Positions 11,562-36,562 of a stretch of 36,562 bases of DNA are shown here, piece after piece. Each line of letters starts with the position of its first letter. Within the stretch, counting starts at the first letter, position 1. Made by a program: the position numbers and the translations under genes. Source of the stretch: Opitutales bacterium (GTDB lineage: Bacteria; Verrucomicrobiota; Verrucomicrobiia; Opitutales; Opitutaceae); NCBI GenBank assembly GCA_018700525.1, contig JABITN010000031.1, forward strand, positions 1 through 36,562, read 5' to 3'. The notes beneath the pieces were generated by a model, which saw nothing but the letters and a program-made list of their open reading frames with translations, made no database searches and had not been told where the DNA came from.

Positions 11562-13535
11562 TTGGTACAAAGATACATTTGGTTTGCCGGTATCGTCCCG
11601 GTAAGGGGGTTAAGTATTGTCCAGATTCTGACTCTAGTTGGGGCAATCTTAGTCGTATCGCAATTTTCATCTGCACAGGATAAGCTAGGCTTACAGAGCA
11701 GACCCAATGTCGTTTTCATACTGACTGACGATCAAGGCTATGGGCCGATGGGCTGCCATGGGGACGTGAATGTCAAGACGCCCGCGCTAGATCGTCTTTA
11801 CGCGGAAAGTGTTCGTTTCACCAATTTCCATGTTCAGCCGAATTGCGCCCCTACAAGAGCGCTTCTCCTAACAGGGAAACCGTCGCTCACGAATGGAGTT
11901 TGGGCTACGATTCGTGGGCGTTCGCTGCTAAGGAGAGGCGAATCTACTATCGCGAATATGTTACAAGACAGTGGATACAGAACTGCATTGTTCGGGAAGT
12001 GGCACCTTGGCGATAACTACCCGTTCCGTCCACAGGATCGCGGATTTGAAGAGGTTCTTGTTCATGGAGGGGGAGGGGTAGGCAACATTCAGGACTATTG
12101 GGCCAACAATTATTTCAATGACTACTACCTGCACAATGGGAAATGGAAGCAATTCAAAGGATATTGTACCGATGTCTGGTTCGATGAAGCTATTCAGTTT
12201 ATTGAAGAAAATCAGGATGACCCTTTTTTCGTCATGATATCCACTAATGCCCCACATCTCCCATTGGTGGCTCCTCAATCGTACATGGAATCTTATCGAG
12301 GCCAGAGAGAGCTGCTGGCTCAGCCGGGAACGGCAGAATTCTATGCTATGGTTGCTAATATTGACGATAATATTGGTCGCTTGCGTGCAAAATTGGATAC
12401 GTTAGATCTGAAAGATAATACGATTCTGATCTTCATGTCAGACAATGGCAGCCTACTCCAGTTTACGACTTGGAATGCCGGTATGGCGGGAGGGAAAGGC
12501 AGGATGTGGGACGGTGGTCACCGTGTACCGTTCTTTATAAGCTGGCCGGATGGATTCAGTGGGGGGCGTGACATCGGAGTGCTCACATCGGGATTGGATT
12601 TACGGCCAACTCTGGAAGAGCTTTGCGGATTGGAGTCAAGTTCTAGGTCGGCCGAAGAGGGTAAAAGTCTGGGGCCGCTGATTCGCGGTCTAACTCCCAG
12701 CTGGATTGATCGTATGATATGTCTGGACTATCAGAATCAGCAGCAGACTCCGCAAAAGAACAATCCGCATGTTGTCATGCAGGGTAATTGGAGATGGTTG
12801 GCTGAGAACCGAGCAGGTCCGCTCACCTGGGAAGAAGGGGTAGATTATACGCTTCCCGATCCTAGAGGAGAACTCCACAATCTAGATGTTGATCCTGGGC
12901 AAAGGCATGACGTCAAAGCGGAGCATCCTGAGCGTGTACGTGAGATGCAGGCGAGTTACAATCGTTGGTGGCGAACTCTAAATTCTCGAGATCCTGCTGC
13001 GGGCCACGAAATTGTTATTGGCTCCGATCACGAGAATCCCACAGCGCTTACGACCCATGACATCAGCGGAGAAGTGGCCTGGAATCATGATCAGGTTCTT
13101 GCGGGATTTCGAGCCACTGGCCACTGGGAGATTGAAGTCACCCAAAACGGCGAGTATGAATTTGCGTTGCGGCGCTATCCAGCCGAGGCGGGTGACCCAA
13201 TACTCGGAACCATCCCGGTCCCGGCAAAACTTAGAAACTTCCATTACTTTGATGGGCGGTACCAATATGCCACGACTCACGAACAAAGTGTCGCTCTACC
13301 GGTTGCATCCGCGTCGCTTAAAATCGGAACATTCGAAAGTGAAAAGGCTCTTCCCGAAAAAACCGCTGCTTCTACTGACTATGAAGTGAATGCAAACGGC
13401 GAGGTAGTAGCGGTAAAATTCACTGCCAACTTGAGAGCGGGTATCACAAAACTCGAAGCCTCCTTCTCCGATGTGTCAGGAAATCTTTTGACCACTCCGT
13501 ATTATATAAAGGTTACTAGAAACCCAGTGTACTAA
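11562..13535 (+). CDS. Sulfatase with long C-terminal beta-sandwich extension
   Basis: This is a 657-residue exported sulfatase. The only reasonable start that keeps the whole signal peptide (1-39, ending 'QFSSAQ') is TTG at 11562; no ATG occurs in that stretch. Active-site elements are D56-D57 ('FILTDDQGYG'), the formylglycine site C95-A-P-T-R99, 'FGKWHLGDNYPFRPQDRGFE', and 'IFMSDNGS' carrying late metal ligands. After about residue 480 comes an extra domain of roughly 170 residues ('GHWEIEVTQNGEYEFALRRY', 'NGEVVAVKFTANLRAGITKL'), likely a beta-sandwich. A decayed copy of this same C-terminal domain lies at 17216-17470 on the other strand. It is the second gene of the probable ThuA-sulfatase operon, 20 bases before the next gene. 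The substrate is unknown. Confidence 0.93.
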   Translation: MVQRYIWFAGIVPVRGLSIVQILTLVGAILVVSQFSSAQDKLGLQSRPNVVFILTDDQGYGPMGCHGDVNVKTPALDRLYAESVRFTNFHVQPNCAPTRALLLTGKPSLTNGVWATIRGRSLLRRGESTIANMLQDSGYRTALFGKWHLGDNYPFRPQDRGFEEVLVHGGGGVGNIQDYWANNYFNDYYLHNGKWKQFKGYCTDVWFDEAIQFIEENQDDPFFVMISTNAPHLPLVAPQSYMESYRGQRELLAQPGTAEFYAMVANIDDNIGRLRAKLDTLDLKDNTILIFMSDNGSLLQFTTWNAGMAGGKGRMWDGGHRVPFFISWPDGFSGGRDIGVLTSGLDLRPTLEELCGLESSSRSAEEGKSLGPLIRGLTPSWIDRMICLDYQNQQQTPQKNNPHVVMQGNWRWLAENRAGPLTWEEGVDYTLPDPRGELHNLDVDPGQRHDVKAEHPERVREMQASYNRWWRTLNSRDPAAGHEIVIGSDHENPTALTTHDISGEVAWNHDQVLAGFRATGHWEIEVTQNGEYEFALRRYPAEAGDPILGTIPVPAKLRNFHYFDGRYQYATTHEQSVALPVASASLKIGTFESEKALPEKTAASTDYEVNANGEVVAVKFTANLRAGITKLEASFSDVSGNLLTTPYYIKVTRNPVY

Positions 13536-13555
13536 TATACCAAATCAGAGTCCAA

Positions 13556-15112
13556 ATGAAGCTAACTTTTATATCTATTTTCTTAATGTGCGTCTCGCTC
13601 AACGGAGTCGAGAGACCTAACATCGTCTTGATTCTGGCTGACGATCTTGGTTATGGAGACGTGAGTTGTTACAATCCGGAGTCCAAAGTGCAGACGCAGA
13701 ATATTGACCGGCTGGCGATGGAAGGCATGCGGTTCACGGACGCGCACAGTCCATCCACGGTCTGCACGCCAACCCGCTACAGCATCATGACCGGCCAGAT
13801 GGTGTTTCGATTGAATTATCCTGGTGTTTTCACGGGAGTCGGTGGACCCGGTTTGATCAAGGAAGATCGCTTAACGCTTCCCGGTATGCTTCGCGACCAG
13901 GGTTACGAAACGGCGCTGTTTGGTAAATGGCACATAGGCATGTCCTTTTTGGATAGGAATGGCGCGGTTATCAACGTAAAGGAGCCGCCCCGGGAAACGA
14001 GCAGGGAATTAAAGCAAAAGATCGGATTGGATGCCGTGAAGCGTATCGACTATTCGCGTGCGATTCCCGATGCGCCGATTCATCGGGGGTTTGATCATTT
14101 CTTTGGCACGGTGTGTTGCCCGACCAGCGATTGGCTCTACGCTTTTATTGATGGAGATCGTATCCCGACGCCACCCACGCAAATATTAGATAGAGACAAA
14201 CTGCCTAAACACGAATGGTCCTTCGATTGCCGTATAGGGATGGTTGCGCCGGACTTCAACCACGAAGAAGTCGATATGGTGTTTCTCGAAAAGAGTCTGG
14301 AATTTCTCGATACACACCATCAGGAAAACCCAAGGAAGCCGTTCTTTCTCTTCCACTCGCTCCAGGCGGTTCACCTTCCATCCTTTCCCGGTAAGGACTT
14401 TCAAGGCAAGACGACGGCAGGGCCTCACGGCGATTTCATCTACCAGTTTGATCATATTGTCGGTCAGTTAATGAAAAAACTCGAAGATCTGGGGATTGCG
14501 GAAAACACCTTGGTGATCGTGACCAGTGATAATGGCCCCGAAGTGGGAACCGTCATCAACATGCGCAGTAAATACCAGCACGATGGAGCGAGACCCTGGC
14601 GTGGTGTGAAACGCGACAACTGGGAAGGCGGACATCGAGTTCCTATGATCGTTCGTTGGCCCGGAAAGGTGGAAGCAGGATCCATTGCGGAACAGACTGT
14701 GTGTCTCACCGATATCATGGCCACTTGTGCCGCGATTACAGACGCAAAGCTGCCTAACGGCGCTGCCGAAGATAGTTTTAATATTCTGCCTGTCCTTTTA
14801 GGTGAGGCGAAAGATGAAATTCGGGAATTCACTTTGCATCAGACCATCAGTCTCGATCTGGCAATACGGAAAGGCGAATGGAAGTATCTCGACCACAAAG
14901 GATCGGGGGGAAACAACTACGATCAAGCAAAGCTGAAACTGTATGCTTTGCCGGATACGGCTCCTAACGCTCCGGGTCAGCTCTACGATTTGAAAAGAGA
15001 TCCAGGAGAGACGAATAACCTGTACTTTGTGTATCCGGAAATCGTCAGGGAATTGAAGAGTAAGCTTGAGCAATTTAAGGAAAGTGGCCGTAGCGCCCCG
15101 AGACGTTTATGA
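13556..15112 (+). CDS. Sulfatase (arylsulfatase-type)
   Basis: This is a 518-residue exported sulfatase. Residues 1-18 are a short signal peptide. The metal ligands D29-D30 lie in 'ILADDLGYGDVS'. The formylglycine site is C70-T-P-T-R74 followed by 'YSIMTG'. 'FGKWHIGM', 'HRGFDHFFG' and 'VIVTSDNGPEVG' are further family motifs. A C-terminal 'GQLYDLKRDPGETNNLYFVY' segment is typical of S1 sulfatases. It is a close paralogue of the partial sulfatase at the left edge. Its stop codon overlaps the start of the next sulfatase (ATGA, 15109-15112), so the two are translationally coupled. It needs formylglycine maturation by an enzyme encoded elsewhere. The sulfated substrate is not known. Confidence 0.95.
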   Translation: MKLTFISIFLMCVSLNGVERPNIVLILADDLGYGDVSCYNPESKVQTQNIDRLAMEGMRFTDAHSPSTVCTPTRYSIMTGQMVFRLNYPGVFTGVGGPGLIKEDRLTLPGMLRDQGYETALFGKWHIGMSFLDRNGAVINVKEPPRETSRELKQKIGLDAVKRIDYSRAIPDAPIHRGFDHFFGTVCCPTSDWLYAFIDGDRIPTPPTQILDRDKLPKHEWSFDCRIGMVAPDFNHEEVDMVFLEKSLEFLDTHHQENPRKPFFLFHSLQAVHLPSFPGKDFQGKTTAGPHGDFIYQFDHIVGQLMKKLEDLGIAENTLVIVTSDNGPEVGTVINMRSKYQHDGARPWRGVKRDNWEGGHRVPMIVRWPGKVEAGSIAEQTVCLTDIMATCAAITDAKLPNGAAEDSFNILPVLLGEAKDEIREFTLHQTISLDLAIRKGEWKYLDHKGSGGNNYDQAKLKLYALPDTAPNAPGQLYDLKRDPGETNNLYFVYPEIVRELKSKLEQFKESGRSAPRRL

Positions 15113-16752
15113 AGATAGTAAATCCAATATCAGTGTTCCTAATAGGGGTGTTATTGATCCCCCATTTATCCTGTGCAATGGATACGAAACCAAACATTGT
15201 TTTCATTTTGGCCGATGATTTGGGTATTGGCGATACGGGTGCTTATGGAGGAGATCGCTGCCTTATCGATACGCCAAACATTGACTCTCTGGCTGCTAGC
15301 GGGTTGCGGTTTACTGATGTTCATCCAAGCGCATCCGTTTGCGGGCCCACTCGACAAGCGCTGATGACCGGACGTTATCCCTGGCGTTTTGGCCCCGCTG
15401 TAAACAGCGGCCCGTGGGGTTTCGTCGGTCCCCAGCCCAATTCAGAAAAGTATACGCTCGGTAAACTACTAAAGAAATCCGGTTACAGTACGGGCTATGT
15501 GGGGAAGTGGCACCTTGGCACGATCATGACTACTTTGGACGGCAAGAAACAGGATCTAGCCAACGTAGATTTCACCAAGCCATTGAAATATGGGCCGGTG
15601 CAATTTGGATTCGACGAAAGTTTCATACTCCCGGGCTCGCTCGACATGTACCCCTACGCTTATGCGCGAAACAATGTTTGGCAGGGTGAAGTCTCAGCCC
15701 AGAAAGGCTGGAGCGCTTTCAACCGGGTGGGACCTGCGGAAAAGGACTTCGAAGACCATGAAGTGCTGGAAACGTTTTATCGCGAAGCGGAATTTTTTAT
15801 AGGGAATCAAGAGAAGGGCACTCCGTTTTTTCTCTTCCTGGCCCTCACGGCTCCCCACACTCCGACCAGCCCTGGAATCAATTGGCAGGGAAAGAGCGAA
15901 CTGGGTGTATATGGAGATTTTGTGATGGAGACCGACCATTCGGTAGAGCGTGTGATGAATGCTCTAAAGGAAAAGGGACTGGACCAAAACACATTGGTTT
16001 TGTTTTCGTCAGACCACGGTGCAGCTCCGTATGCGGGAAACATCCTGAAAGCGACTCCCGGACAGATCAAATTGCTGGAAGAGAAGGGGCACTATCCCAG
16101 TGGGCCGCACCGTGGGTATAAGTTTTCTGTATACGAAGGAGGCTTACGGGTCCCTCTCATTGCTTGGTGGCCGGGAGTTGTTCCTCAAGGATCTACGAGT
16201 GACGCTTTGGTGGGCCTGAACGATTTTATGGCGACCTTTGCGGAACTGACAGGTGTGAAGCTGGGGGACGACGAAGCGCCTGACTCCATCAGTTTCGCGA
16301 ATCTCTTAAGGAACCCCGAGGCCAAAGGGACGCGACGCAACTTGATCATGCAATCCGTTGTGCCGTTTGTCATCAGAGATGGAAGTTGGAAACTGTGTAT
16401 ATGTCCCGGTAGTGGAATGCCTGGTAATTCAGAAAATGGCGCAGGAAACGTGCCATCCCCTGAAAATGCTTGGCGAAAAGCGCTGAGTCAGTTTTCTAAC
16501 GTTCCAAAAGAATCGGAACTACTCAAAGCGCCTTTTGTGCAATTGTTCAATTTGGCTAATGATCCGCACGAGGACCATAACCTTGCAGCGAAAAATCCGG
16601 GAAGAGTAGCGAGAATGATCTCGCTACTGAAGAAGCAAATTGAAAGGGGCCGTAGCACACATGGCCCTAAGCTGGAAAATGATCAGTATATCAAGATTAT
16701 AGATACCAGTGGAAGGCGATTGCCGGAGTTTGTCCGTGATACGTTCCGGTAG
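15109..16752 (+). CDS. Sulfatase (arylsulfatase-type)
   Basis: This is a 547-residue sulfatase and the last gene of the probable ThuA-sulfatase operon. Residues 1-23 form a signal peptide with a Cys near the end ('IPHLSCAMD'), so lipoprotein anchoring is possible but the lipobox is weak. Metal ligands D36-D37 are in 'ILADDLGIGDTGAYGG'. The formylglycine site is C78-G-P-T-R82 followed by 'QALMTGRYPWR'. 'VGKWHLG', 'LFSSDHGAAPYAG' and 'FNLANDPHEDHNLA' complete the S1 pattern. It starts four bases inside the previous gene. After its stop, no clear terminator is visible. The set of three different sulfatases in one operon suggests stepwise desulfation of a glycan with several sulfate positions, which is inference. 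Confidence 0.95.
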   Translation: MKIVNPISVFLIGVLLIPHLSCAMDTKPNIVFILADDLGIGDTGAYGGDRCLIDTPNIDSLAASGLRFTDVHPSASVCGPTRQALMTGRYPWRFGPAVNSGPWGFVGPQPNSEKYTLGKLLKKSGYSTGYVGKWHLGTIMTTLDGKKQDLANVDFTKPLKYGPVQFGFDESFILPGSLDMYPYAYARNNVWQGEVSAQKGWSAFNRVGPAEKDFEDHEVLETFYREAEFFIGNQEKGTPFFLFLALTAPHTPTSPGINWQGKSELGVYGDFVMETDHSVERVMNALKEKGLDQNTLVLFSSDHGAAPYAGNILKATPGQIKLLEEKGHYPSGPHRGYKFSVYEGGLRVPLIAWWPGVVPQGSTSDALVGLNDFMATFAELTGVKLGDDEAPDSISFANLLRNPEAKGTRRNLIMQSVVPFVIRDGSWKLCICPGSGMPGNSENGAGNVPSPENAWRKALSQFSNVPKESELLKAPFVQLFNLANDPHEDHNLAAKNPGRVARMISLLKKQIERGRSTHGPKLENDQYIKIIDTSGRRLPEFVRDTFR

Positions 16753-20570: not shown

Positions 20571-21989
20571 TCAGGCGATGATGTCGTTGACGACATGGCC
20601 GTGGACGTCGGTGAGTCGAAAGTCGCGGCCTTGGAAGCGGTAAGTGAGGCGTTCGTGGTCGAAACCTAACAAGTGAAGCAACGTTGCATTGAGGTCGTGG
20701 ACGTGTACTGGATTTTCGGTTACATTGAATCCAAAGTCATCGGTTGCTCCGTGAACGTGGCCGCCTTTGACGCCGCCGCCGGCTAGCCACATGGTGAATG
20801 CTCGGTTGTGGTGATCGCGTCCGTTGTCGCCTTGGGCCATCGGTGTGCGTCCGAATTCGCCGCCCCAGACAACGAGGGTGTCTTTGAGGAGGTCGCGGTC
20901 TTTCAGATCCTGGAGTAGGGCTGCGACGGGTTGATCGGTGTATTTACAGTTTTTCGGAAGGTCGGTGTCGAGGCTGTCGTGCTGATCCCAGGCTTCATGG
21001 AAGAGCTGGACGAAACGCACGTCGCGCTCGACGAGACGTCGGGCGAGCAGGCAGTTGCGGGCAAAGTTCGATTCTTTGGGATCTTTGATGGCGTAGGCGT
21101 CGAGAGTTGCTTGGGATTCGCTGCCTAGATCCATGAGTTCCGGAGCGCTGGTTTGAAGACGGTAGGCTGTCTCGTAGGCTTGGACACGGGATGCCGTCTC
21201 CGGGTCGGAGATGCTCGCCATCGTATGTTGATTGAGCTGCTTGAGAGCGTCGAGCGAGCTCCGTTGGGTCTGGGCATCGTATCCTTTGGGGTTGGATAGG
21301 TAGAGGATTGGGTCGCCTTTGCCTCGGAAGGGGACGCCGTTGTAGACGGTCGGAAGGAATCCGCAGCCGTAGTTGCTGGCCCCGCCGCTGGTACCTTTGG
21401 CGCTGCTGAGCACGACATATCCGGGTAGGTCTTCGCTCTCGTTGCCAAGCCCGTAGAGAGTCCAAGCTCCGATGCTGGGTCGGCCGAATTGCGAATGGCC
21501 GGTGCTGAGCATGATCTGGGCTGGTGCGTGATTGACCGCGTCGGTCTGCATGGACTTGATGAAGCAGAGGTCGTCGACGTGCTTGGCGATATTGGGCAAG
21601 AGTTCGCTGATCTCGATGCCGCTTTGACCGTGACGGTTGAAATCGAATTTGGTCCCGAGGAGGGCTGACTTAGGATTAATGAAGGCGGCACGATAGCCTT
21701 CGAGCAATTCGGCAGGGGGAAGTTCGCCGTCCCGTTTAATCAGCTCTTGCTTGTGGTCGAAGAGGTCCAGGTGGCTGGGAGCTCCGGCTTGGAAAATGTA
21801 GATGACGCGTTTCGCTTTGGGCACAAAGTGAGGCGAGCGCGAGGCGAGTGGATTGGCGGGCGAGCTGGTTGCGGTGTCGCGGGCGAGCAGCGAGTTGAGG
21901 GCCAGTCCTGCCATGCCTACGCCGCAGTTGCGGAGAAACCAACGGCGCGATTGGATTGATGCCGCTTCGTTTTTGAGTTCGTGATCCAT
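20571..21989 (-). CDS. DUF1501 secreted protein (Tat signal)
   Basis: This is a 472-residue protein. Residues 11-40 carry a Tat-type signal ('SRRWFLRNCGVGMAGLALNS'), so it is exported folded. The rest matches DUF1501, a family related to alkaline phosphatase/sulfatase folds: 'VIYIFQAGAPSHLDLFDHK', 'MQTDAVNHAPAQIMLSTGHS', 'VVWGGEFGRTPMAQGDNGRD', 'HNRAFTMWLAGGGVKGGHVH', 'LNATLLHLLGFDHERLTYRF'. In Planctomycetes and Verrucomicrobia this family is nearly always next to a cytochrome/DUF1549/DUF1553 gene, and that gene lies only five bases upstream here, so the two form an operon. The molecular function is unknown; a role with the cytochrome in degrading a complex sugar has been proposed for the pair. 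The ATG at 21989 gives the usual N-terminus. Confidence 0.93.
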   Translation of the reverse strand: MDHELKNEAASIQSRRWFLRNCGVGMAGLALNSLLARDTATSSPANPLASRSPHFVPKAKRVIYIFQAGAPSHLDLFDHKQELIKRDGELPPAELLEGYRAAFINPKSALLGTKFDFNRHGQSGIEISELLPNIAKHVDDLCFIKSMQTDAVNHAPAQIMLSTGHSQFGRPSIGAWTLYGLGNESEDLPGYVVLSSAKGTSGGASNYGCGFLPTVYNGVPFRGKGDPILYLSNPKGYDAQTQRSSLDALKQLNQHTMASISDPETASRVQAYETAYRLQTSAPELMDLGSESQATLDAYAIKDPKESNFARNCLLARRLVERDVRFVQLFHEAWDQHDSLDTDLPKNCKYTDQPVAALLQDLKDRDLLKDTLVVWGGEFGRTPMAQGDNGRDHHNRAFTMWLAGGGVKGGHVHGATDDFGFNVTENPVHVHDLNATLLHLLGFDHERLTYRFQGRDFRLTDVHGHVVNDIIA

Positions 21990-21994
21990 GATGC

Positions 21995-24900
21995 CTAGTT
22001 TTTGTTAAGCGTTTCGTCTAGGTTCAGCAATACGCGTGAGGCGATGACCCAGGAGGCAACGTCGCGTGGAGTGGTTTCAGGCGGAAGTTCGGGTGGATTG
22101 TCTGGGTCGATGAATGCAATTTCGCGCGTGTTGATCCATCCTTCCGAAAGGCGATGACGTTGTTCTTCTAGAAGATCGAGCAGAACTTTGGTGTCAGCCT
22201 TGCTGGCCGGGCGACCGGTTGCGAGCAGGTAGCCGTAGTTGATTCTGGATACGTCGTCCTTTCCTCCTTCTTCGAGGATTCTCAATCCCATGCCTTGGGC
22301 GGCTTCGACGAAGATGGGTTCGTTGAGAGAGGTGAGGGCGGAGAGTGGTGTATTGGAAAGAATGCGGCGGACGCAGGAGGCGTCGGCGTTAGGAGCATCG
22401 AAGGAAGCGAGAACCGGGTCGGGCATGGCGCGTTTTCGGAAAATATAGAGCGAGCGGCGGTAGCGTTGTTCGTCGGTGGCGACGTCCCAGTATTTAACGG
22501 GTTGGAAATTATCTTTGAGCATGCTTTCCGGTACGGGCGGGAAAACGCTGGGGCCGCCGATTTCTGAATTGAGCAGTCCTGATGCAGCGAGGGCTACGTC
22601 GCGAACGACTTCGGCTTCGGCCCGGAAGCGAGGGCCTCTAGCGAGTAGGACGTTACGGGGATCTTTTTCCGTTAGGTCCGCTCGGAGATTAGAGCTTTGC
22701 TGGTAGGTGTCGCTTGAAAGGATGGTTTTGATGAGGCGTTTTTGGCTCCAGCCAGTTTCCATTAAGTCGACGGCGAGCCAGTCGAGTAGGTCGAGATGGT
22801 CGGGCATAGGGGCTCGGGTACCGAAGTCTTCGGGGGTAGTGACGAGACCTTGGCCGAAGAGTGCTTGCCAGATGCGATTGACTTGAACGCGAGCGGTTAA
22901 CGGGGCGTCTTCGTGGGTGGCCCAGTGGGCTAGGTCGAGACGGGTTGGGTTGTCGTTTGGCAGTGGGTTGAGGATGGCTGGGACGTGTCTTTCGACGGCG
23001 TGTTTCGGGCTGTCCCAGGAACCACGGTCGAGGAGGCGGGTTTCGCGTTTGAATTTGGGATCGGTTTCAGCGGTGTGCAGAACGCTGGTTTTCGCCTCGG
23101 GAAAACTGGCTTCGAAGGCAGCGATTTTTGTATTCAGTTCTTTAAGACCTTCTTGGCTTTGGCGCCAGGCACGAAAGAGAGCGGCGTTGTCGGAGGAAGA
23201 GCGATCGCTTTTCGGTTTCGAGAGAGCCATTGTTGCCGCATGATCGTAAGCGGGTACCAGAGGATTGGCTCCATCGGTTAGTGCGAGTCGGAATCGGCCC
23301 ATTTGCTGGTTGTCTAGACCGCCGTTGCTGCCGCCGTGTCGCTTCGTAAATCGGACCTGCAATTGGCTACCCTGCGGCAATGCGAGCGGTTCTTTGAACG
23401 CGACTGAGGCGCTTGATGGTGCGTGCCTGAGAATAGGGCCTCGATCGGGGCTCCAAGCGGTTTTATTGTCGCCGTCGATAAGGAATCGAGCGGGTCCGAC
23501 GCGTCGTTCGTCTTCCTCTTTATTGGTTTGAAAATACGTGTGAAGTTTGCGCGGTTTGAAATCGAAATCGGCGGTTGCGCTTCTCAATTCGACAAGAGTC
23601 CATTCCGTTTCGTTGGGCCATTTTCGCGAAACCTCCCATTCGCTAATCGCGAAAGTTCCCCAGTAGCTGCGCCCGGGACCGCTAAACGGAAGGTCTTTGT
23701 GGAGCAAGGCTTCGAATCGCATGCCAGTGGCCATGTTGATTTGAGTTTCGCCTTCAATCTTAGCGACGCCGCCGGGAGAGGGATGGCCTAGAATGAGGAT
23801 GCTGTGGTCAGCGAGTTCTTCTGGATGGTTGAGGCCGCCTTCCCATTCTTGTAGGTCGGTATCCCAGGTGGTCCATTCGGTTGCGTCGGTTTGTTGTTCC
23901 ATTTCCCATTCGGCGATCTCGGATTGCCAGTTGGGGCGTTGGGTTTTGATTTCCTGTTCTAGCGTTTCGATTTGGCTGCTTGTGGATTCGATGGACTGAG
24001 TTTGCTCGTCGCTATAGACCCAGGATTTGGCTTCGGAGGTGTCGTTGAAAAACGAGAAGAGCCCGAAGTACTCGTCATGGCTAATCGGGTCGAACTTGTG
24101 GGAATGGCATTGGGCGCATTGGAGGGTGAGTCCGATGGTTGCCTTTCCGAAGCAATCCATACGGTCGAAAATGCCTTCGAGGCGGAATTGTTCGGGGATG
24201 ATGGCCCCTTCTTCGTTGACCATGCCGTTGCGCATGAATCCGCTGGCGACGAGTTGATCCTGGGTGCGGTTCGGGATTAGGTCGCCAGCGATTTGTTCGG
24301 TGAGGAACTGATCGTAGGGCATGTCGGCGTTGAGTGCTTTTATAACCCAGTCGCGATAGATCCATTGTTCGCGTGGCTTGTCTTTTTCGAATCCATTGGT
24401 GTCGGCGTAGCGTGCGATATCGAGCCATTGACGCGCCCATTTCTCGCCAAAGGCGGGTCGGGTCATCAGTTCGTCGATGAGAGTGCCGATACTGGATTGG
24501 GCGTTAGAGCGGTAGGCTTTGACGAAGGCTTCGATTTCTTGAGGGCTGGGAGGGAGTCCGATGAGGTCGAGATGGATACGCCGGATAAGCGTGTGGGCCG
24601 ATGCGGATGATGAGGATTTGAGGCCGGCTTCTTTAAGGCGTTGGCGAATGAACGCGTCGATGGGGTGTTTGGCGGTGGTGGGCGGCGTGTCTTTTTGGGG
24701 TCTGCTGAAGGCCCAGTGTGATTCGTATTCACCGCCTTGCTCGATCCATTGTTCGAGTAATTTCTTTTCGGTTTCGGATAGGATCTTTTTGGATTTCGGA
24801 GGCGGCATTTGCTCGTCTTCGACGTCGGACTGGGTGAGGAAAACCAGATCGCTTGCGTCGGGATCTCCGGGGACGATGGCGATGGCTCCGTCACGGTCGG

Positions 24901-25087
24901 CGTAGGCATGTTCGGCAATGTCTAGTCGAAGATCGGCTTCACGGGTTTCTTCGTCCGGTCCATGGCATTCGAAGCAGTTGTCGGATAGAATCGGCAGGAT
25001 GTCTCGACTGTAGTCAACGCTCGGGTCGTTCGCAAGTAAGAGGGTCGGGGTTAGAAAGGCGGCTGTGATGAATGCGTAGCGTGACAT
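21995..25087 (-). CDS. PSC1 cytochrome / DUF1549 / DUF1553 protein
   Basis: This is a 1030-residue exported protein. Residues 1-20 are a signal peptide. The N-terminal planctomycete-type cytochrome domain has C38-F-E-C41-H42 ('NCFECHGPDEETREADLRLD'). DUF1549 (about 142-345) includes 'LIRRIHLDLIGLPPSPQEI', 'WARQWLDIARYADTNGFE' and a second haem-type motif C324-A-Q-C327-H328 in 'QCAQCHSHKFDPISHDEY'. A middle beta-rich region (about 400-640) looks like a carbohydrate-binding or LamG-like insert. DUF1553 (about 690-960) has 'RVQVNRIWQALFGQGLVTTP' and 'LSALTSLNEPIFVEAAQGMG'. It probably passes electrons in the periplasm together with DUF1501. Activity has not been defined for the family as far as I know. 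Domain order and length are normal for it. Confidence 0.94.
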   Translation of the reverse strand: MSRYAFITAAFLTPTLLLANDPSVDYSRDILPILSDNCFECHGPDEETREADLRLDIAEHAYADRDGAIAIVPGDPDASDLVFLTQSDVEDEQMPPPKSKKILSETEKKLLEQWIEQGGEYESHWAFSRPQKDTPPTTAKHPIDAFIRQRLKEAGLKSSSSASAHTLIRRIHLDLIGLPPSPQEIEAFVKAYRSNAQSSIGTLIDELMTRPAFGEKWARQWLDIARYADTNGFEKDKPREQWIYRDWVIKALNADMPYDQFLTEQIAGDLIPNRTQDQLVASGFMRNGMVNEEGAIIPEQFRLEGIFDRMDCFGKATIGLTLQCAQCHSHKFDPISHDEYFGLFSFFNDTSEAKSWVYSDEQTQSIESTSSQIETLEQEIKTQRPNWQSEIAEWEMEQQTDATEWTTWDTDLQEWEGGLNHPEELADHSILILGHPSPGGVAKIEGETQINMATGMRFEALLHKDLPFSGPGRSYWGTFAISEWEVSRKWPNETEWTLVELRSATADFDFKPRKLHTYFQTNKEEDERRVGPARFLIDGDNKTAWSPDRGPILRHAPSSASVAFKEPLALPQGSQLQVRFTKRHGGSNGGLDNQQMGRFRLALTDGANPLVPAYDHAATMALSKPKSDRSSSDNAALFRAWRQSQEGLKELNTKIAAFEASFPEAKTSVLHTAETDPKFKRETRLLDRGSWDSPKHAVERHVPAILNPLPNDNPTRLDLAHWATHEDAPLTARVQVNRIWQALFGQGLVTTPEDFGTRAPMPDHLDLLDWLAVDLMETGWSQKRLIKTILSSDTYQQSSNLRADLTEKDPRNVLLARGPRFRAEAEVVRDVALAASGLLNSEIGGPSVFPPVPESMLKDNFQPVKYWDVATDEQRYRRSLYIFRKRAMPDPVLASFDAPNADASCVRRILSNTPLSALTSLNEPIFVEAAQGMGLRILEEGGKDDVSRINYGYLLATGRPASKADTKVLLDLLEEQRHRLSEGWINTREIAFIDPDNPPELPPETTPRDVASWVIASRVLLNLDETLNKN

Positions 25088-26739: not shown

Positions 26740-28119
26740 CTATCGTTCTGACTGCAGCGTCTGTTGGATACTGCTATCGTATTCGCTTTGAAGGTCGGAG
26801 AGGCGTTTGACGACTTCGGGGTATTTGAATGCGAGATTGGTCATTTCGGTGGGGTCCATGGCTAGGTTGGCTAGGAAGAGTTTGTCGTTTTTGGTGATGG
26901 GAGCTTTTTGGGAATTGTCCTTGGGATTTCCATGCAATTTCCAATTGCCTTCGCGCACGACCCATTCGGGTGTTTTGCCTTTTCCAAGCTGCCAATAGAA
27001 GGTGTCGTGGGGGGAGTTCGCACCGTTGTCCAAAATAACGTCTTTGATGGATTTGCCATCGATGTGATGTCCGGGTAGTTCGATGCCGCAGAATTCCGCT
27101 AGAGTGGGGAACCAGTCGACTCCGGTTACCATCTGGTCTCTCACTTGGTTTTCGGGAATCACTCCGGGAAGCGTGACGATGGAAGGAACGCGAATGCCGC
27201 CTTCGAACAAACATCCTTTGGCACCACGGTAGATACCGGCTGAACCGCCTCCGTGGAAGGTGCGCTCTTCGGTGGAGTGGCCATGGTCAGATTGGAAAAT
27301 GATAATCGTATTGTCAGTCAGTCCTATTTGATCGAGATGGGTCAGCATTTCGCCAATCTTTTCATCGAGCGTGGAGACGAATGCGTTGTATTTGCTTCGC
27401 GGTGACGGGATATCCTTGTAGTAGTCGCGCCATTTGGCAGTGCCTTGCAATGGGTAGTGGGGTGAGTTGAGGGCCCAGTAGACAAAGAAGGGTTTCTCGC
27501 GATTTTGGGTTATGAAGCCATTGATTTCGCGCACCATGCTGTCTTGGAAGAAGAAGCCGTCTTCGTTGATGTGTTCGCCGTTTCGCCAAAGGTCGTGGCG
27601 GTTGGGGCCTTTCCAGAAAAAGAAGTGGGAGTAGTTGTCGATGCATCCGCCCATGTGTCCCCAGGAGTAGTCGAAGCCTTGAGCGTTGGGCATGGTTTCG
27701 GGAGTGTATCCAAGATGCCATTTCCCGATGTGTCCGGTTTTATATCCGGCATCCTTCATCACTTCGGCGATCGTCACTTGGCCAGTCGGCATTCCGGGAA
27801 CGCCTTCTTCGGAGCTAACGTTTCCAGGTACGCCTGCCCGAGCGGGGAAGCGTCCTGTCATAAGTCCCGATCGACTGGCCGAGCAGATCGCGGATGGCGA
27901 GTACATTTGTTGAAACCGAACTCCGCGTTTCGCGAGCGAGTCGATGTGGGGCGTGTAGATGTCCGTAGTTCCGTAGCAGCTTAAGTCCACGGTCCCTTGG
28001 TCATCGGTGTAGATGATGATGACGTTGGGTTTGTCGGTTGCTTGGAGCGGGATGGTCGCGGAGCAGGCGAAGAGTGCGGCGAGGGCGATTAGGGGGAAGC
28101 GAGTGTAGGAGGTGGCCAT
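26740..28119 (-). CDS. Sulfatase with C-x-A-x-R active-site motif
   Basis: This is a 459-residue exported sulfatase. Residues 1-28 are a signal peptide ('LIALAALFACSATIPLQA'). Metal ligands D39-D40 are in 'IIYTDDQGTVDLSCYG'. The active-site segment is C79-S-A-S-R83 followed by 'SGLMTGRFPAR', with Ala where most relatives have Pro. C-x-P/A-x-R is still an accepted formylglycine signature. 'IGKWHLGYTPETMPNAQGFD', 'IIFQSDHGHS' and 'GGSAGIYRGAKGCLFEGGIR' are further motifs. It resembles arylsulfatase A / GALNS-like members. It lies between another sulfatase upstream (gap 199 bases) and the isomerase downstream (52 bases). Start ATG at 28119. Confidence 0.94.
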   Translation of the reverse strand: MATSYTRFPLIALAALFACSATIPLQATDKPNVIIIYTDDQGTVDLSCYGTTDIYTPHIDSLAKRGVRFQQMYSPSAICSASRSGLMTGRFPARAGVPGNVSSEEGVPGMPTGQVTIAEVMKDAGYKTGHIGKWHLGYTPETMPNAQGFDYSWGHMGGCIDNYSHFFFWKGPNRHDLWRNGEHINEDGFFFQDSMVREINGFITQNREKPFFVYWALNSPHYPLQGTAKWRDYYKDIPSPRSKYNAFVSTLDEKIGEMLTHLDQIGLTDNTIIIFQSDHGHSTEERTFHGGGSAGIYRGAKGCLFEGGIRVPSIVTLPGVIPENQVRDQMVTGVDWFPTLAEFCGIELPGHHIDGKSIKDVILDNGANSPHDTFYWQLGKGKTPEWVVREGNWKLHGNPKDNSQKAPITKNDKLFLANLAMDPTEMTNLAFKYPEVVKRLSDLQSEYDSSIQQTLQSER

Positions 28120-28283
28120 AGAGTTTTGGGGTGTAAGGGAAGGTGTTATAAGGCGGTGTTTTAAACCACCGATATCACGAAGGAACGGAGAGTGGGTAGA
28201 TGAGGGTTTGGGAAATGGTTTTCGAGTTGGCGGATGGGGCCGTTGTGGTTGCGTTGACTTCTTTGGGGGCAGTGATGGCCGCT

Positions 28284-28307
28284 CGGATATCGGCCGCTAC
28301 CTTTTGG
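28284..28307. repeat. REP-like repeat, copy 1 (CTCGGATATCGGCCGCTACC)
   Basis: This GC-rich, partly palindromic sequence (GGCCGCTCGGATATCGGCCGC) lies between two sulfatase genes. Nearly the same sequence, with two base changes and one extra C, is at 32210-32236. Both are just after or between stop codons, as expected for REP elements. Confidence 0.6.
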
Positions 28308-28318
28308 TGCTAGGGTGT

Positions 28319-29920
28319 TTATTGTTTTTTGCTGAGGTCGGTGCGTTTGACCCACTGGGTGTGTTGCTTCTCTAAGGCTCTGGCTTTTTCGGGCATTTTT
28401 TGGGCGAGGTCGGAGAGTTCGGTGGGGTCGTCGTTTAGATTGTACAATTCCCATTGTCGTTTATTTTCGGATACAAGTTTCCAGTCGCCGACGCGGATGG
28501 CTTTGCCTTTGCTGTGGGCCCAGAATAGAGCGTCGTGGGGCGAGTAGGTTCCTTTGTCTCCGTTAAGAATGGAAGAGAACGATTGGCCTTCGGTAGGGAG
28601 AGGTTTTTGAGTAACTGGTTGACCTCCCGCGATTTCGACGAGGGTAGGCATAAGATCGATTACATGGCAGACTTCATTGGCAAGGCTTCCTTTGAGCTCT
28701 GATTTGATACCGTCGGGCCAAGTCATGATAAGTGGTGAGCGGGTTCCTCCCTCATGATCGTGTTGTTTGAAAAGGCGAAACGGTGTATTGGATGCATTTG
28801 CCCATCCGTATCCATAGGACTGCCAACTGCTTTGCGGACCTGGCATGACGCTCGGCAGGTTTCCTGGGATGATTGGCGTTCGTTTGCCATCGGTGGTAAA
28901 AGGTCTAGTCCAAGAGCCTGTTCGATCTGGATTGTATTCGACGTGGCAACCGCCGTTGTCCTGTTGGTAAATGAAAAGGGTGTTTTCGTATTCGCCGTTC
29001 GCTTTCAAGTGGTCGATGATACGGCTTATATTCCGGTCCATGCAGGTGATCTGAGCGGCGTAGACTTCCATGCGGCGCTCTTGCCACTCTTTATGGGCTT
29101 CCTCTTTCCAAGCCGGTACATCGGGATGGCGAGGGGAGAGTTGCCAGGCGGGATTTATGATGCCAAGATCTACCATGCGTTCGTATCGTTGTTCCCTCAA
29201 TACGTCCCAACCCATGGAGTAGCGCCCTTTGTAGGGTTCGATGTCTTCGGGTTTAGCATGCAAAGGCCAATGGGCCGCATTGTAGGCGACATAGAGAAAG
29301 AAAGGATCGTCCTTAGCCTGGGCATTGTGGTCTTTGAGAAAAGTCAGGGCATAGTCGGTTATTGAATCTGTGTAGTAGAAGTCTGGATTGTTCTTCCATT
29401 CGTGATCCCTGTTCTCTCCGTTGAGATAGAGATCGACGGGGGCAAAGAAATCGGACGTTCCCCAATAGGTGCTGTAGGCTCGATCAAATCCGCGCTTGTG
29501 CGGAGCGCTGGGACCGTTCGGTTTTGTGGGATCGGAGAGGTGCCATTTTCCGGACATGAAGGTCGAGTATCCGGCGGTTTTCAGTGCTTCGGGTAGAGTT
29601 GTCAGATCCGGGTGGAATCCTCTTGAGGCAGAGCCATCGGCAAGGGCGGATTTTGGGTAGAGTCCCGTTAGGAGGCTAGCTCTTGTAGGCCAGCACATAT
29701 TATTGACGTAGAAATTGGTAAAACGGAGTCCGTTTTCTGCGAGGGCGTCGAGTTGAGGAGTTTCTATTTCACCTCCGTAGCTGCCTAGATCCGAGTAACC
29801 CATGTCGTCTGCGATGACGAGTACGATATTGGGGCTGTCGCTGGCGGCGTTGGCTAGCATGCATAGGCTCAGAGCGAGCAGGATTAGCGAGAGATGAGTG
29901 GGGCTAGGTGATGAGGTCAT
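28319..29920 (-). CDS. Sulfatase (arylsulfatase-type)
   Basis: This is a 533-residue exported sulfatase when started at ATG 29920. An upstream ATG at 29965 would add 15 residues before the signal peptide and is less likely. The signal peptide is residues 1-26 ('LSLILLALSLCMLANA'). Metal ligands D38-D39 are in 'VIADDMGYSDLGSYGGEI'. The formylglycine site is C76-W-P-T-R80 followed by 'ASLLTGLYPKS'. 'MSGKWHLSDPTKP', 'FIYQQDNGG' and the C-terminal 'WELYNLNDDPTELSDLAQKM' fit S1 sulfatases; the length fits the arylsulfatase A/S1_4-like group. It is the first gene of a minus-strand run with the next sulfatase and the isomerase. No terminator was seen after it, only the REP-like repeat. Confidence 0.94.
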   Translation of the reverse strand: MTSSPSPTHLSLILLALSLCMLANAASDSPNIVLVIADDMGYSDLGSYGGEIETPQLDALAENGLRFTNFYVNNMCWPTRASLLTGLYPKSALADGSASRGFHPDLTTLPEALKTAGYSTFMSGKWHLSDPTKPNGPSAPHKRGFDRAYSTYWGTSDFFAPVDLYLNGENRDHEWKNNPDFYYTDSITDYALTFLKDHNAQAKDDPFFLYVAYNAAHWPLHAKPEDIEPYKGRYSMGWDVLREQRYERMVDLGIINPAWQLSPRHPDVPAWKEEAHKEWQERRMEVYAAQITCMDRNISRIIDHLKANGEYENTLFIYQQDNGGCHVEYNPDRTGSWTRPFTTDGKRTPIIPGNLPSVMPGPQSSWQSYGYGWANASNTPFRLFKQHDHEGGTRSPLIMTWPDGIKSELKGSLANEVCHVIDLMPTLVEIAGGQPVTQKPLPTEGQSFSSILNGDKGTYSPHDALFWAHSKGKAIRVGDWKLVSENKRQWELYNLNDDPTELSDLAQKMPEKARALEKQHTQWVKRTDLSKKQ

Positions 29921-30366
29921 GATTGCAGTGAATGATGTCGATCGAATCCTGATGAGGTCAACCAACTTAGGTTCAAAGTGTTTTGAGAAGATTCAAGGAA
30001 GCGGGATGTTTTGAGATAGTTACATCAATGAACTCACGCGAAGCCGCAAAGCCGCTAAGGTTTTGAGTAGGATGGTGATAACAGTTGGGCGAATTGTTGG
30101 AGCCGCGCGAGTCCCTCGCGTAGCTACTTCGCAGTGCGGCGTGGCTTTGGTTGTTCTTACTTTACCGCTTAGCGGCTTTGCGTGAGCCTTTTTCTCTGTG
30201 GATTTAGCTGTTTGAGCCGCACCAATAGGCGGGTTGCGGGGTATTGAGGTTGCTTTGGAGGACGTCTTGACGATTCTCCTTGCTGCGGGCGCTAATCCTC
30301 TTCCTACTTCGCGCCTTTTTTTACGGATATCTATAGAGAAATCCGAACCTATTGAGGTTATAAGAA
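29921..30366. other. Divergent intergenic region before the helicase
   Basis: This is a 446-base gap between a minus-strand sulfatase and the plus-strand helicase. Most of it is the inverted-repeat element at 30033-30186. From 30187 to 30366 lies the leader of the helicase gene. Its last part has GAGG at 30354-30357, nine bases before the ATG, a good ribosome-binding site. The open frame on the minus strand here is made of repeat sequence and is not a gene. Confidence 0.5.
30033..30186. repeat. Dispersed inverted-repeat element, fullest copy
   Basis: The left end CTCACGCGAAGCCGCAAAGC (from 30033, running to about 30060 with GCTAAGG) is inverted at the right end as CCGCTTAGCGGCTTTGCGTG (30165-30186), apart from a seven-base indel. 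The middle (30104-30150) has the palindromic GCGAGTCCCTCGC followed by GTAGCTAC, also present at 25711-25752 and 35602-35632. At about 154 bp with terminal inverted repeats and no coding capacity, it looks like a MITE-like or REP-composite element. Confidence 0.75.
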
Positions 30367-32298: not shown

Positions 32299-33723
32299 CT
32301 ACCGGCCTTTGAGCTGGTTTAGCTGACGGGAGAGCTTTTCGATGGTGGGCTTGTACTCGGGGATATTGGCTAGGTTTCGGTTTTCTTCCGGATCCTTGTC
32401 GTGGTCGTAGAGCATGCGCGATACGATACGGCCGTCGCCTCGGTCTTCTTTGGTCGTGTATTCAGTATAGCGCCACCGATTCGAGCGAATCGTATCGCCG
32501 TTGCTGAAGCGGCCGATAGCGTAGCCTTTCCCGGTCGAGTCCGGGTCTTTCAGGACCGGAGCGAGGCTTTGCCCGTCAAGGTGCTTGGGAGCATCGATTC
32601 CGGCGAGCTCGCAGAGAGTGGGATAGATGTCTATGAATTCGGTTAGCGTGTTGGTCGTCTGTCCTTGTGGTGCTGATTCGCTTTGCGGCGTCCGTATTAT
32701 GAGGGGCACCCGCATGGAGTTTTCGAAAGTGCAGTGTTTGGCCCAGAGAGAGTGCTCGCCGAGGTTCCACCCGTGATCTCCCCAGAGGATAACGATTGTG
32801 TTTTCGCTGAGACCTGATTGTTCGAGTTCCTCGAGCACACGTCCTACTTGGGCATCGGTAAAGGAAACAGAGGCATAGTATCCGCGAATCAAGGTTTTGG
32901 CCATTTGATCGCTGACGGGACCTTTATTGGGAACGCCGGCGTAGTTTCTTAGTTCGCCAAAATTGTGGATAGCTTCTTTGGGCGCGTTTTCGGGTATGGA
33001 GTAATTGTCGGGCACGTCGATGGGCGTGTCGTCATAGAGATCCCAATACGTTTTCGGAGCGTTGAACGGGAGATGCGGTTTGAAGAATCCCACTGCTAGA
33101 AAAAATGGGGCTTCTTGTTGGGATAGGCTTTTGAGCTGTTTGATAGCTTCGGCGGCAACTTGTCCGTCGCCGAGGGTATCATCAGGAACATCGTAGGAAG
33201 CGAATGGGAGGCGGTGGTTTCTGGATTGTTCGGTCAGGGCGTCGAGGTCTGTGGGAGGAGACCATCCGACGATTGGTTCTGAGCTTCCTTTGAAATTCCG
33301 TTTTGGCCTCCAAGGGGACTGGGTCCAGCCGTGCTTCATGTCGGCGGGATAGTGGAGGATCTTTCCTAGGCTCGCGGTGTTGTAGCCATTGTTCTTGAGG
33401 TGCAGGTGGAGGGGGGTGATTTCAGGCGCGTCTTCATCGATGCGAGCCGTGTAGCCTACGAAACGGCTGGCGCTTGGGCGAACGCCGCTCATTAGGCTGG
33501 CCCGTGAGGCGCCGCAGGTAGGGACCATGCAATAGGCACGGTTGAACCGGGTTCCGCTAGCGGCGAGTTTGTCGATGTTGGGCGATTGTATCTGCGACTG
33601 GCCATAGGAACTGAGTTGCGGTCGGAGGTCGTCGACGGCGATCATCAGAATGTTCGGCCGCTCTCCGTGGACGAACGTTGAGATTGAAAGAAAGAGAGAA
33701 AGGAGATAAAGTGGAAGTTTCAT
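32299..33723 (-). CDS. Iduronate-2-sulfatase-like sulfatase (C-x-A-x-R)
   Basis: This is a 474-residue exported sulfatase when started at ATG 33723, which directly opens a signal peptide ('KLPLYLLSLFLSISTFVHG'). A longer start at 33801 would put 26 odd residues in front. Metal ligands D31-D32 lie in 'MIAVDDLRPQLSSYG', the pattern typical of iduronate-2-sulfatases. The formylglycine site is C70-G-A-S-R74 followed by 'ASLMSGVRPSASRF', again with Ala for Pro. 'LGKILHYP', 'FFLAVGFFKPHLPFNAPKTY' and 'VILWGDHGWNLGEHSLWAKH' are strong IDS-family motifs. The exact substrate is not known; relatives act on uronate 2-sulfates and on algal glycans. The next gene upstream is the shortened esterase. Confidence 0.94.
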   Translation of the reverse strand: MKLPLYLLSLFLSISTFVHGERPNILMIAVDDLRPQLSSYGQSQIQSPNIDKLAASGTRFNRAYCMVPTCGASRASLMSGVRPSASRFVGYTARIDEDAPEITPLHLHLKNNGYNTASLGKILHYPADMKHGWTQSPWRPKRNFKGSSEPIVGWSPPTDLDALTEQSRNHRLPFASYDVPDDTLGDGQVAAEAIKQLKSLSQQEAPFFLAVGFFKPHLPFNAPKTYWDLYDDTPIDVPDNYSIPENAPKEAIHNFGELRNYAGVPNKGPVSDQMAKTLIRGYYASVSFTDAQVGRVLEELEQSGLSENTIVILWGDHGWNLGEHSLWAKHCTFENSMRVPLIIRTPQSESAPQGQTTNTLTEFIDIYPTLCELAGIDAPKHLDGQSLAPVLKDPDSTGKGYAIGRFSNGDTIRSNRWRYTEYTTKEDRGDGRIVSRMLYDHDKDPEENRNLANIPEYKPTIEKLSRQLNQLKGR

Positions 33724-33824: not shown

Positions 33825-34286
33825 TCAGTTGAGGGAAGCCATGAATGAATCAATGGTTGGTTTCCCTTTTAGGTAGCCGAGAGATTTTAGGAATGCATCC
33901 ATTTCGGTTACCGTTGCACGAAAAATGGAGTTGTCTCCTTTTCCGTAGTTGAAGAATCCGTGCCCTTGATTTTCGTAGCCGACCATGCCTCGGGATGCGA
34001 GATACTTGCAGTGGTTTTCGAATTGAGCGGGAGTGCCGCCTCTCCAGCCGCCGCCGAAGAAAAAGATGATCGCTGGGCGAGGTCTGGCGGAAGCCTTTCC
34101 ATCGGGCGTGTAGATGTGGATGGGGCGGGAAACATCGTCGATGGTCTTATAGATTTCAGTCGTCGCCCCAGGAAGTGTAGTGGGAGCGGGGCCTGTATTT
34201 TGTGCCTGTAGACTCGCCGAGGCGATTCCCAAAACGAATGCGAGGGCCAGAGTGAAGCTGTGGAGTGTTCTTGTATAGATTCTCAT
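33825..34286 (-). pseudogene. Esterase (alpha/beta hydrolase) with internal deletion of the catalytic core
   Basis: This frame of 153 residues is open from ATG to stop but is far shorter than the family (usually about 300 residues). Residues 1-28 are a signal peptide. Residues 70-101 are the N-terminal part of an exported esterase, with the oxyanion-hole stretch 'FFFGGGWRGGTPAQF' and 'KYLASRGMV'. Directly after this comes 'GYENQGHGFFNYG' (103-115), which in full-length relatives is near the C-terminus and holds the catalytic His; 'VTEMDAFLKSLGYLKG' ends the fold. The whole centre, including the nucleophile G-x-S-x-G and the catalytic Asp, is missing in frame. It is therefore very likely inactive as a hydrolase. 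A clean join suggests one deletion of roughly 170 codons between short homologies. Confidence 0.8.
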
Positions 34287-34495: not shown

Positions 34496-35524
34496 ATGAG
34501 CGATAAATTGAGAATCGGAGTGTTGGGACTGACTCATGATCATGTGTGGAGCGAATCGGATGCGATTGTGGCATGCGAAGAGACGGAGTTGGTTGGCGCG
34601 GCGGATCCGAATGAGCCGCTTACCGCACGATTCGCAGAGCAGTACAGATGCCCGGTTTATGGTTCGAGTGACGAGTTGTTTGAGAATGAAGCACTCGATG
34701 CGGTCTATGTGTACGGCAATAATTTAGAAGGAGCGGCCTTATCGATTCAGGCGATGAATCGTGGGCTTCATGTGCTTATCGAGAAACCGTTGGCAGCGGG
34801 TCTTGAGGATGCTAATCGCATGGTGGCGGCAGCTAGGAAGAATGGCGTACAACTGTTGGTCAATTGGCCTTTTACGTGGTGGCCTCAGCTGCAAAAGGCT
34901 TTGGAGATGGCCAAGGGCGGAGAGCTGGGAGAAATCATTGGAGTGAATTACCGAGCGGCTCACTGCGGTCCGGAGGAGCTTGGTTGTTCGGAGTATTTTT
35001 GCAATTGGCTATTCGACGAGAAACTTAATGGAGCCGGAGCGATGATGGACTATTGTTGTTATGGATCTGTCCTCGCGGCTGTCTTAATGGGAATGCCGGA
35101 TTCGGTGACTGGGATCGAAGGCGGCAAGGTGAAGGGCTTTTTGTCGGTTGAGGATAGTGGAGTCATTGCGATGAAGTATCCGCGCGGACTATCGGTGGCA
35201 TCGGCCTCTTGGACGCAGATTGGAAATCTGACGAGTTATACTACGGTGATTTATGGCGAGAAGGGAACGTTGGTTGTAGATCCCATGGGAGACGGCAAAC
35301 TGTATTTGGCAACTAAGGACAGCCCGGATGGAGTGGAGATTGAAATTCCTGAACACGATATCTCGCTTAAGGATTCCGCTCACCATTTGGCCGCAGTAGT
35401 GAAAGGCCGTCAGGAACCCTGTTTATTGTGTCGGGACGAGTATTCACGCGATGCTCAAGAGATTCTAGAAGCGGGTATTCAATCTGCAAAGACAGGACAG
35501 CAAGTTGCCCTACCACTTGGGTAA
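34496..35524 (+). CDS. Gfo/Idh/MocA family oxidoreductase
   Basis: This is a 342-residue cytoplasmic NAD(P)-dependent oxidoreductase. The N-terminal Rossmann fold begins 'LRIGVLGLTHDHVWSES'; the usual third Gly of GxGxxG is replaced, as in the 'G.THDH' subgroup. 'AADPNEP' ends the second strand and binds the ribose, and 'HVLIEKPLA' (EKP motif, Lys for catalysis) is present. The C-terminal beta-sheet domain includes 'GAMMDYCCYGSVLAAVLMGM' and 'TTVIYGEKGTLVVDPMG'. It probably oxidises or epimerises a sugar or inositol derivative. I chose the ATG at 34496, which gives the normal N-terminus; a GTG at 34460 would add 12 residues. It is convergent with the symporter gene. Confidence 0.92.
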   Translation: MSDKLRIGVLGLTHDHVWSESDAIVACEETELVGAADPNEPLTARFAEQYRCPVYGSSDELFENEALDAVYVYGNNLEGAALSIQAMNRGLHVLIEKPLAAGLEDANRMVAAARKNGVQLLVNWPFTWWPQLQKALEMAKGGELGEIIGVNYRAAHCGPEELGCSEYFCNWLFDEKLNGAGAMMDYCCYGSVLAAVLMGMPDSVTGIEGGKVKGFLSVEDSGVIAMKYPRGLSVASASWTQIGNLTSYTTVIYGEKGTLVVDPMGDGKLYLATKDSPDGVEIEIPEHDISLKDSAHHLAAVVKGRQEPCLLCRDEYSRDAQEILEAGIQSAKTGQQVALPLG

Positions 35525-35689: not shown

Positions 35690-36562
35690 TTATTTACGAC
35701 TGGCTATCAATCCAATCGTGAAGGATGCGATGATTCCTAGAGGAGCATATAGGAGGCCGCTCATGGTGGTAAAATAGCGGGCCCAGAGTAGTATGGCGAC
35801 TCCGCAAATTGCGCCTATCACTGCTCCGCGGGCATTGGCGCTTTTGGTGAACATGCCGAGAACGAATATGCCGCAGAGCGGGCCCATGGCGAATCCGATG
35901 ATCGTTAGAAATGTTTTTAGGGCAGACTCGATATCGCTCCATGCTAGCACGAGGGCAAAGGTCGTTCCCAGTCCGCCTAGAGCGACTGTGAGGATTCGCG
36001 CGAGGCGCAGATATGAGCTCTCGGGAGCTTGCCAGCCGAGGCGGCGAACGAAGTCGGTTACGAGGGCAGTGGAAGTGCTGTTCATACTTGTCGATATCGT
36101 CGATTGAGCGGCGGCGAAAACAGCGGCGATTAGAATACCGGCGATTCCGATTGGCAGTTCCCTGGAAATGAAAAGCGGAAATATTGAATCGGTTTTGAAT
36201 GTAGGATCGAGTGCCTCCGGGTACGTTTTATAGAACGCGTAAAGCGCTGTACCGAGGCCGAAGAATAGTAGAGATGCAATGGCGGACATTCCCGCATTCA
36301 ACCAGACGGCGCCTTGGGCTGATTTTTCAGTCGGGGTGGATACGTAACGTTGTACGACGGCTTGATCGGAGCTGTAAGGAATGAGCGAACTGCCGAGGCC
36401 TCCCAGGGCGACGACCCAAAAGGCGGTGGTCATGTAGGATGCTGCTCTGAAGTCCATATCGGCCCAACGTAATTTGCGATCGGCTGCGGCGATGCTTTTC
36501 AATTCGCCGAATCCGCCATCCAGTCCGCTAATAATCAGACCGAAGCAAAGGAATGCTCCTCC
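35690..36562 (-). CDS. Sodium/solute symporter (SSS family), C-terminal part, runs off right edge
   Basis: The minus frame is open from the window edge to the stop at 35690 (290 residues visible); the N-terminal part lies outside. About seven hydrophobic segments are visible. 'SYMTTAFWVVALGGLGSSLI', 'SSDQAVVQRYVSTPTEKSAQ', 'AAVFAAAQSTISTSMNSTST' and 'PLCGIFVLGMFTKSANARGA' are clear motifs of the SSS (SGLT-like) family, which imports sugars, sialic acid, iodide or other small solutes with Na+. The QRY stretch and the Ser/Thr-rich 'STISTSMNS' segment belong to the Na+ and substrate path. Next to a sugar oxidoreductase and sulfatase genes, a sugar or uronate substrate is plausible. An apparent start at 36502 is an internal TTG, not the true start. 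Confidence 0.93.
   Translation of the reverse strand, partial: GGAFLCFGLIISGLDGGFGELKSIAAADRKLRWADMDFRAASYMTTAFWVVALGGLGSSLIPYSSDQAVVQRYVSTPTEKSAQGAVWLNAGMSAIASLLFFGLGTALYAFYKTYPEALDPTFKTDSIFPLFISRELPIGIAGILIAAVFAAAQSTISTSMNSTSTALVTDFVRRLGWQAPESSYLRLARILTVALGGLGTTFALVLAWSDIESALKTFLTIIGFAMGPLCGIFVLGMFTKSANARGAVIGAICGVAILLWARYFTTMSGLLYAPLGIIASFTIGLIASRK

Follow-up and report, generated by a model that had tools for sequence, protein, structure and literature searches.

The open reading frame at 33825–34286 on the minus strand of the window (the whole stretch of 36,562 nucleotides analysed here, which is all of contig C197 in the Opitutales genome G000, an assembly of 268 contigs and 96.5% completeness) is the remnant of a gene for an exported alpha/beta-hydrolase that has lost its catalytic core through an internal, in-frame deletion. 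The frame comprises 153 codons and a stop codon. The best explanation, with a probability of about 0.8, is a young one-step loss of function caused by a single 492-bp deletion, and the open remnant would then be an evolutionarily young pseudogene. A recent deletion is better supported than a retained role of the short protein, because none of the relatives listed showed the short form and there seems to have been little time for decay.

The reference for these comparisons was a congeneric full-length gene of 317 codons, located at L040:6001–6954 (L040 being contig C94 of genome G003). In the DNA alignment with this gene exactly 492 bp (164 codons) are absent, as a single clean gap with no other indel within the gene. 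The remnant consists of the first 102 and the last 51 codons of the orthologue, and reference residues 103–266 are missing. Codons 1–102 occupy 33981–34286 (minus strand) and run past the FFFGGGW motif of the oxyanion hole, and codons 103–153 with the stop codon, equivalent to orthologue residues 267–317, occupy 33825–33980 on the same strand. Blastn returned two collinear blocks, 33980–34205 (81.0%) and 33840–33983 (86.1%), which share the 4 bp GTCG at 33980–33983; in the full-length gene this tetranucleotide is found at each end of the segment that is missing here. When the wider region was aligned globally, the gap came to lie in the wrong place and unrelated stretches were paired; the gene-only alignment and blastn were therefore relied on. 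The original prediction, that an exported esterase has lost its catalytic core by an in-frame deletion with the frame left open, is thus established against the syntenic congeneric orthologue, and its junction near 33981 agrees with the one placed by alignment and blastn. The missing part had been put at about 170 codons including the Ser and the Asp; the loss of both residues is borne out, and the length is corrected to 164 codons. Both ends had also been described as well kept, which is true of the ends of the mature protein; the putative signal peptide (about codons 1–28 in the N-terminal part, minus strand, recognized by eye only) is the least conserved part, with dN of 0.84 against G003 over 28 codons.

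Deletions were simulated in the full-length gene, with the gene of the relative standing in for the ancestor. Homology of at least 4 bp at the ends was found in 4.6% of simulated 492-bp deletions and in 2.0% of simulated deletions of 300–699 bp, and the 4-bp homology at the junction hints at slippage or illegitimate recombination. The frame stayed in phase and open in 32.9% of the simulated 300–699 bp deletions, so the open frame of the remnant needs no special explanation.

With 109.5 bits for the BD-FAE family (Pfam PF20434), the full-length orthologue is above the gathering score of 26.8, whereas the remnant, at 12.2 bits, falls under it. BD-FAE is described as a bifunctional feruloyl and acetylxylan esterase with the triad Ser128-Asp237-His269 (PMC8165983). 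The closest solved relative of the full-length orthologue by sequence is TtEst2 (5ao9, 7bfn; phmmer E 2.4e-85, residues 35–306), which is also matched by two stretches of the remnant (E 2.3e-27). TtEst2 is a carboxylesterase of Thermogutta terrifontis (PDB 5AO9, PMC4655241; PDB 7bfn, PMC7865465), described as having the triad Ser126, Asp216, and His248 and an oxyanion hole formed by Gly53, Gly54, and Ala127 (PMC4655241). Ser152, Asp241, and His273 of the reference align opposite the triad of TtEst2, and the Ser, Asp, and His are each present in 49 of the 49 full-length homologs used. These homologs were obtained from 76 frames at E ≤1e-40 spanning more than 235 residues in the loci examined, of which 58 were distinct and 57 remained without the reference; eight under 35% identity were dropped. 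In the remnant Ser152 and Asp241 are deleted and His273 is kept as codon 109 (33960–33962, minus strand), leaving the Ser-Asp-His triad incomplete. The oxyanion hole is incomplete as well: Gly79 and Gly80, aligned with Gly53 and Gly54 of TtEst2 (PMC4655241), are kept at codons 79–80 (34047–34052, minus strand), and the third residue, which follows the Ser, is deleted. Compared with TtEst2 as described there, the window protein therefore lacks counterparts of Ser126, Asp216, and Ala127, and the oxyanion-hole segment is joined to the catalytic-His segment as had been predicted. Together with the nucleophilic Ser and the catalytic Asp, the deletion took away one oxyanion amide out of three and the greater part of the strands of the core sheet; judged from its sequence, the product of the remnant is not expected to act as a serine esterase.

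The remnant is flanked by a downstream sulfatase gene (32299–33723, minus strand; Sulfatase and SGSH_C domains, start chosen by comparison with L040) and by a divergent gene for a GFO/IDH/MocA oxidoreductase (34496–35524, plus strand), the frames of both being open throughout. In G003 the full-length gene, with a complete triad, lies between the same two neighbors (89% identical protein for the divergent oxidoreductase, 79% for the co-directional sulfatase), which answers the proposal that relatives be compared beside the sulfatase gene. The genus is represented by 11 genomes including G000; full-length orthologues were found in G003 and, at 61% identity to the reference, in G005, G007, and G009, and G002 has an orthologue fragment cut by a contig start. 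The oxidoreductase is the neighbor in G003, G007, and G009, and the sulfatase is conserved in G003 and G009, with a different sulfatase in that place in G007; neither neighbor gene was found in the 9.5 kb examined from G005. Within the 96.5% complete assembly of G000 no second copy of the orthologue was detected, the seven other matches to the full-length protein (best 43% identical) being paralogues.

The contig is rich in sulfatase genes, with two further genes on the minus strand at 26740–29965 (Pfam) and three on the plus strand at 11562–16752 (by eye, from translations). At 20571–25087 a DUF1501 gene lies beside a PSCyt1/DUF1549/DUF1553 gene, a pair that is common in Planctomycetes and Verrucomicrobia. 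The window ends inside a symporter gene (SSF, 35690–36562) that matches one in the relative, where a sodium:solute symporter seems to carry a fused kelch-repeat region (L040:772–4378, by eye) and adjoins an N-acetylneuraminate-lyase-like gene (by eye); L040:772–4378 and the window segment 35690–36562 suggest a sugar-uptake locus.

When the short protein was used as the query, matches were obtained in 88 of 252 family genomes and 39 of 384 class genomes (both counts including G000). Among the matches listed, from sets of 57, 252, and 384 genomes, G000 alone had the short form. With the full-length protein as the query, the matches listed for the 11 genomes of the genus likewise show the short form in G000 only. 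These genome sets overlap and each includes G000; different E-value limits applied to the family and class searches, one genome was taken per species, and up to 15 (family) or 10 (class) candidates were scored per genome in the larger searches. Sharing of the short form by relatives had been named beforehand as one observation that would speak against the original prediction; it was not seen among the relatives listed, and a recent deletion is thereby favored. The other matches listed either end at or near the junction or cross it within longer frames; a single one sits in a frame truncated at a contig start.

Several of these matches were considered as possible short forms and rejected. N-side matches crossing the junction, such as those in G053:C21 (query 7–130), G184:C53 (12–120), G001:C130 (31–131), and G054:C8 (37–123), lie in open frames of at least 299 codons and were taken as full-length genes with stretched alignments. 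The C-side matches crossing it, such as those in G007 (60–152) and G005 (67–152), lie in full-length orthologues, with the exception of G002:C78. Four short frames were examined, all of them without this junction: a 106-codon frame in G002:C78 (69–153), cut by the contig start and with the Asp region still there; a frame in G144:C121 cut by the contig end; a gene in G180:C168 split into two overlapping frames; and a frame in G017:C4 in which only a 44-residue C-terminal stretch is kept. Further short frames with one-sided matches (G248:C89, G186:C278, G009:C9, G009:C34, and G002:C196) were left out. The split gene in G180:C168 (L089:1547–2240) belongs to a distant homologous esterase from another genus of the family, its overlapping frames corresponding to reference residues of about 33–155 and 117–274, and may owe its split to a frameshift or to an error in sequencing. 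In G017:C4 the 44 C-terminal residues of the esterase family (L090:1476–1607) are contained in a frame of 86 codons that precedes a larger open one at 1696–3204; this is possibly another eroded esterase.

It is unlikely that the junction is an assembly artefact or a rare chimeric join in a genome that really has the full-length gene. The division of the assembly into 268 contigs would be compatible with such an error, and a 4-bp homology is short and within the range of a chimeric read. However, the junction shares 4 bp only, which makes repeat collapse unlikely, assemblers joining reads by word lengths far above 4 bp. The alignment with the relative extends over almost the full length of the sulfatase, the oxidoreductase, and the more distant helicase, an intact copy is present on no other contig of G000, and the join is exactly in frame, which has a chance of one in three.

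Comparison of the window with G003 gives 45 synonymous and 23 replacement changes in the 125 mature codons, with dS of 0.88 and dN/dS of 0.096; the neighboring genes have dN/dS of 0.099 (sulfatase), 0.054 (oxidoreductase), and 0.052 (helicase) against the same genome. The mature codons were used because the signal segment has diverged in all relatives compared; with the signal peptide the whole-frame value is 0.172, and the 28-codon signal segment alone has 0.326. The low dN/dS fits either a young deletion or a short protein still under constraint. Had the window branch been neutral ever since the split, about 99–103 replacement differences would be expected vs. 23 observed, and neutral evolution can account for at most 10–21% of this period (95% bounds, for an intact-gene constraint of 0.096 to 0.04). 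If the remnant is now neutral, the deletion took place within the last 10–21% of that time. In codon branch models, where the synonymous branches to the outgroups are saturated, a free omega was 0.160 on the window branch (background 0.035, gain of 1.8 log units) and 0.332 on the intact G003 branch, with the larger gain of 2.7 log units; an omega of 1 on the window branch was compatible with the data even in the case of the intact oxidoreductase, and these models were set aside. Profile scores against the 49 homologs, summed over the 18 differing mature sites, are -1.21 for the window and -5.32 for the intact G003 gene, so that the window is no worse and these sites carry no sign of general decay. 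Arg68 and Ile121, unseen in the 49 homologs and located at variable sites, were discarded as signs of decay, since G003 has five residues scoring as low. Codon 54 (34125–34127, minus strand) encodes Arg where 49 of the 49 full-length homologs used have Leu, which is a hint of relaxation.

These data bear on the alternative that the short protein was kept for some use, such as that of an exported binding or partner protein with the oxyanion-loop and C-terminal segments preserved. The open frame free of stops, the preserved start codon and N-terminal export segment, the low dN/dS between the mature remnant and G003, and the lack of an overall excess of unusual residues are all in line with retention. 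A young deletion predicts the low dN/dS equally well, however, and the radical change at the otherwise invariant Leu and the confinement of the short form to G000 among the matches listed count against retention, the latter in particular against an old mini-protein. Structure prediction points the same way, weakly. The AlphaFold model of the remnant shows no confident fold (pLDDT 43, pTM 0.25, from a shallow alignment of four sequences), and that of the full-length relative is also of low confidence (pLDDT 58, pTM 0.60, three sequences); in the latter model the missing segment contains all or most of each of five strands out of nine, among them the strand that precedes the nucleophile. Retention is, on balance, improbable. 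More doubtful still is the one-step birth of an exported mini-protein, that is, a core-less hydrolase with a secretion signal, an oxyanion loop, and a C-terminal helix that is kept by selection; if true, it might, e.g., bind a ligand or act as a partner for the neighboring sulfatase. The notion that the short form is ancestral and that relatives gained an insertion found no supporting point and can practically be dismissed, as two members of the hydrolase triad, Ser and Asp, sit in the extra segment, which four congeners and TtEst2 (5ao9, 7bfn) possess, the 49 homologs being no independent count in this matter since they were chosen for a span of more than 235 residues.

The sequence of events favored here is that of a recent deletion. 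A single 492-bp deletion would have taken residues 103–266 from a gene for an exported BD-FAE/TtEst2-like carboxylesterase in this lineage, most likely by slippage or illegitimate recombination between the two GTCG tetranucleotides. The frame would have been kept by a chance of roughly one in three, with start and stop codons intact and no effect on the sulfatase frame downstream, and too little time has probably passed for stops or frameshifts to appear in the remnant. The loss may have been tolerated thanks to the paralogues or to a changed substrate use. It suggests that an esterase beside a sulfatase, in a sulfatase-rich neighborhood, is dispensable in one lineage. Such a gene loss would probably be missed by automatic annotation, the frame being open and the product resembling a normal small exported protein. 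Apart from these points, the case represents ordinary genome turnover.

A far from exhaustive search of the literature on pseudogenes and on in-frame or short-homology deletions found no such case. In Salmonella, spontaneous deletions of up to 5 kb with microhomology at the junctions have been described, and an 8-bp homology cut-off was deduced for true deletions (PMC3411829). The present deletion differs from those described in that report in having a homology of 4 bp, below the 8-bp cut-off. It resembles recent pseudogenes formed by short-homology deletion in its clean deletion, short direct repeat, full-length relatives, and little other decay, and differs from them in that the frame is kept.
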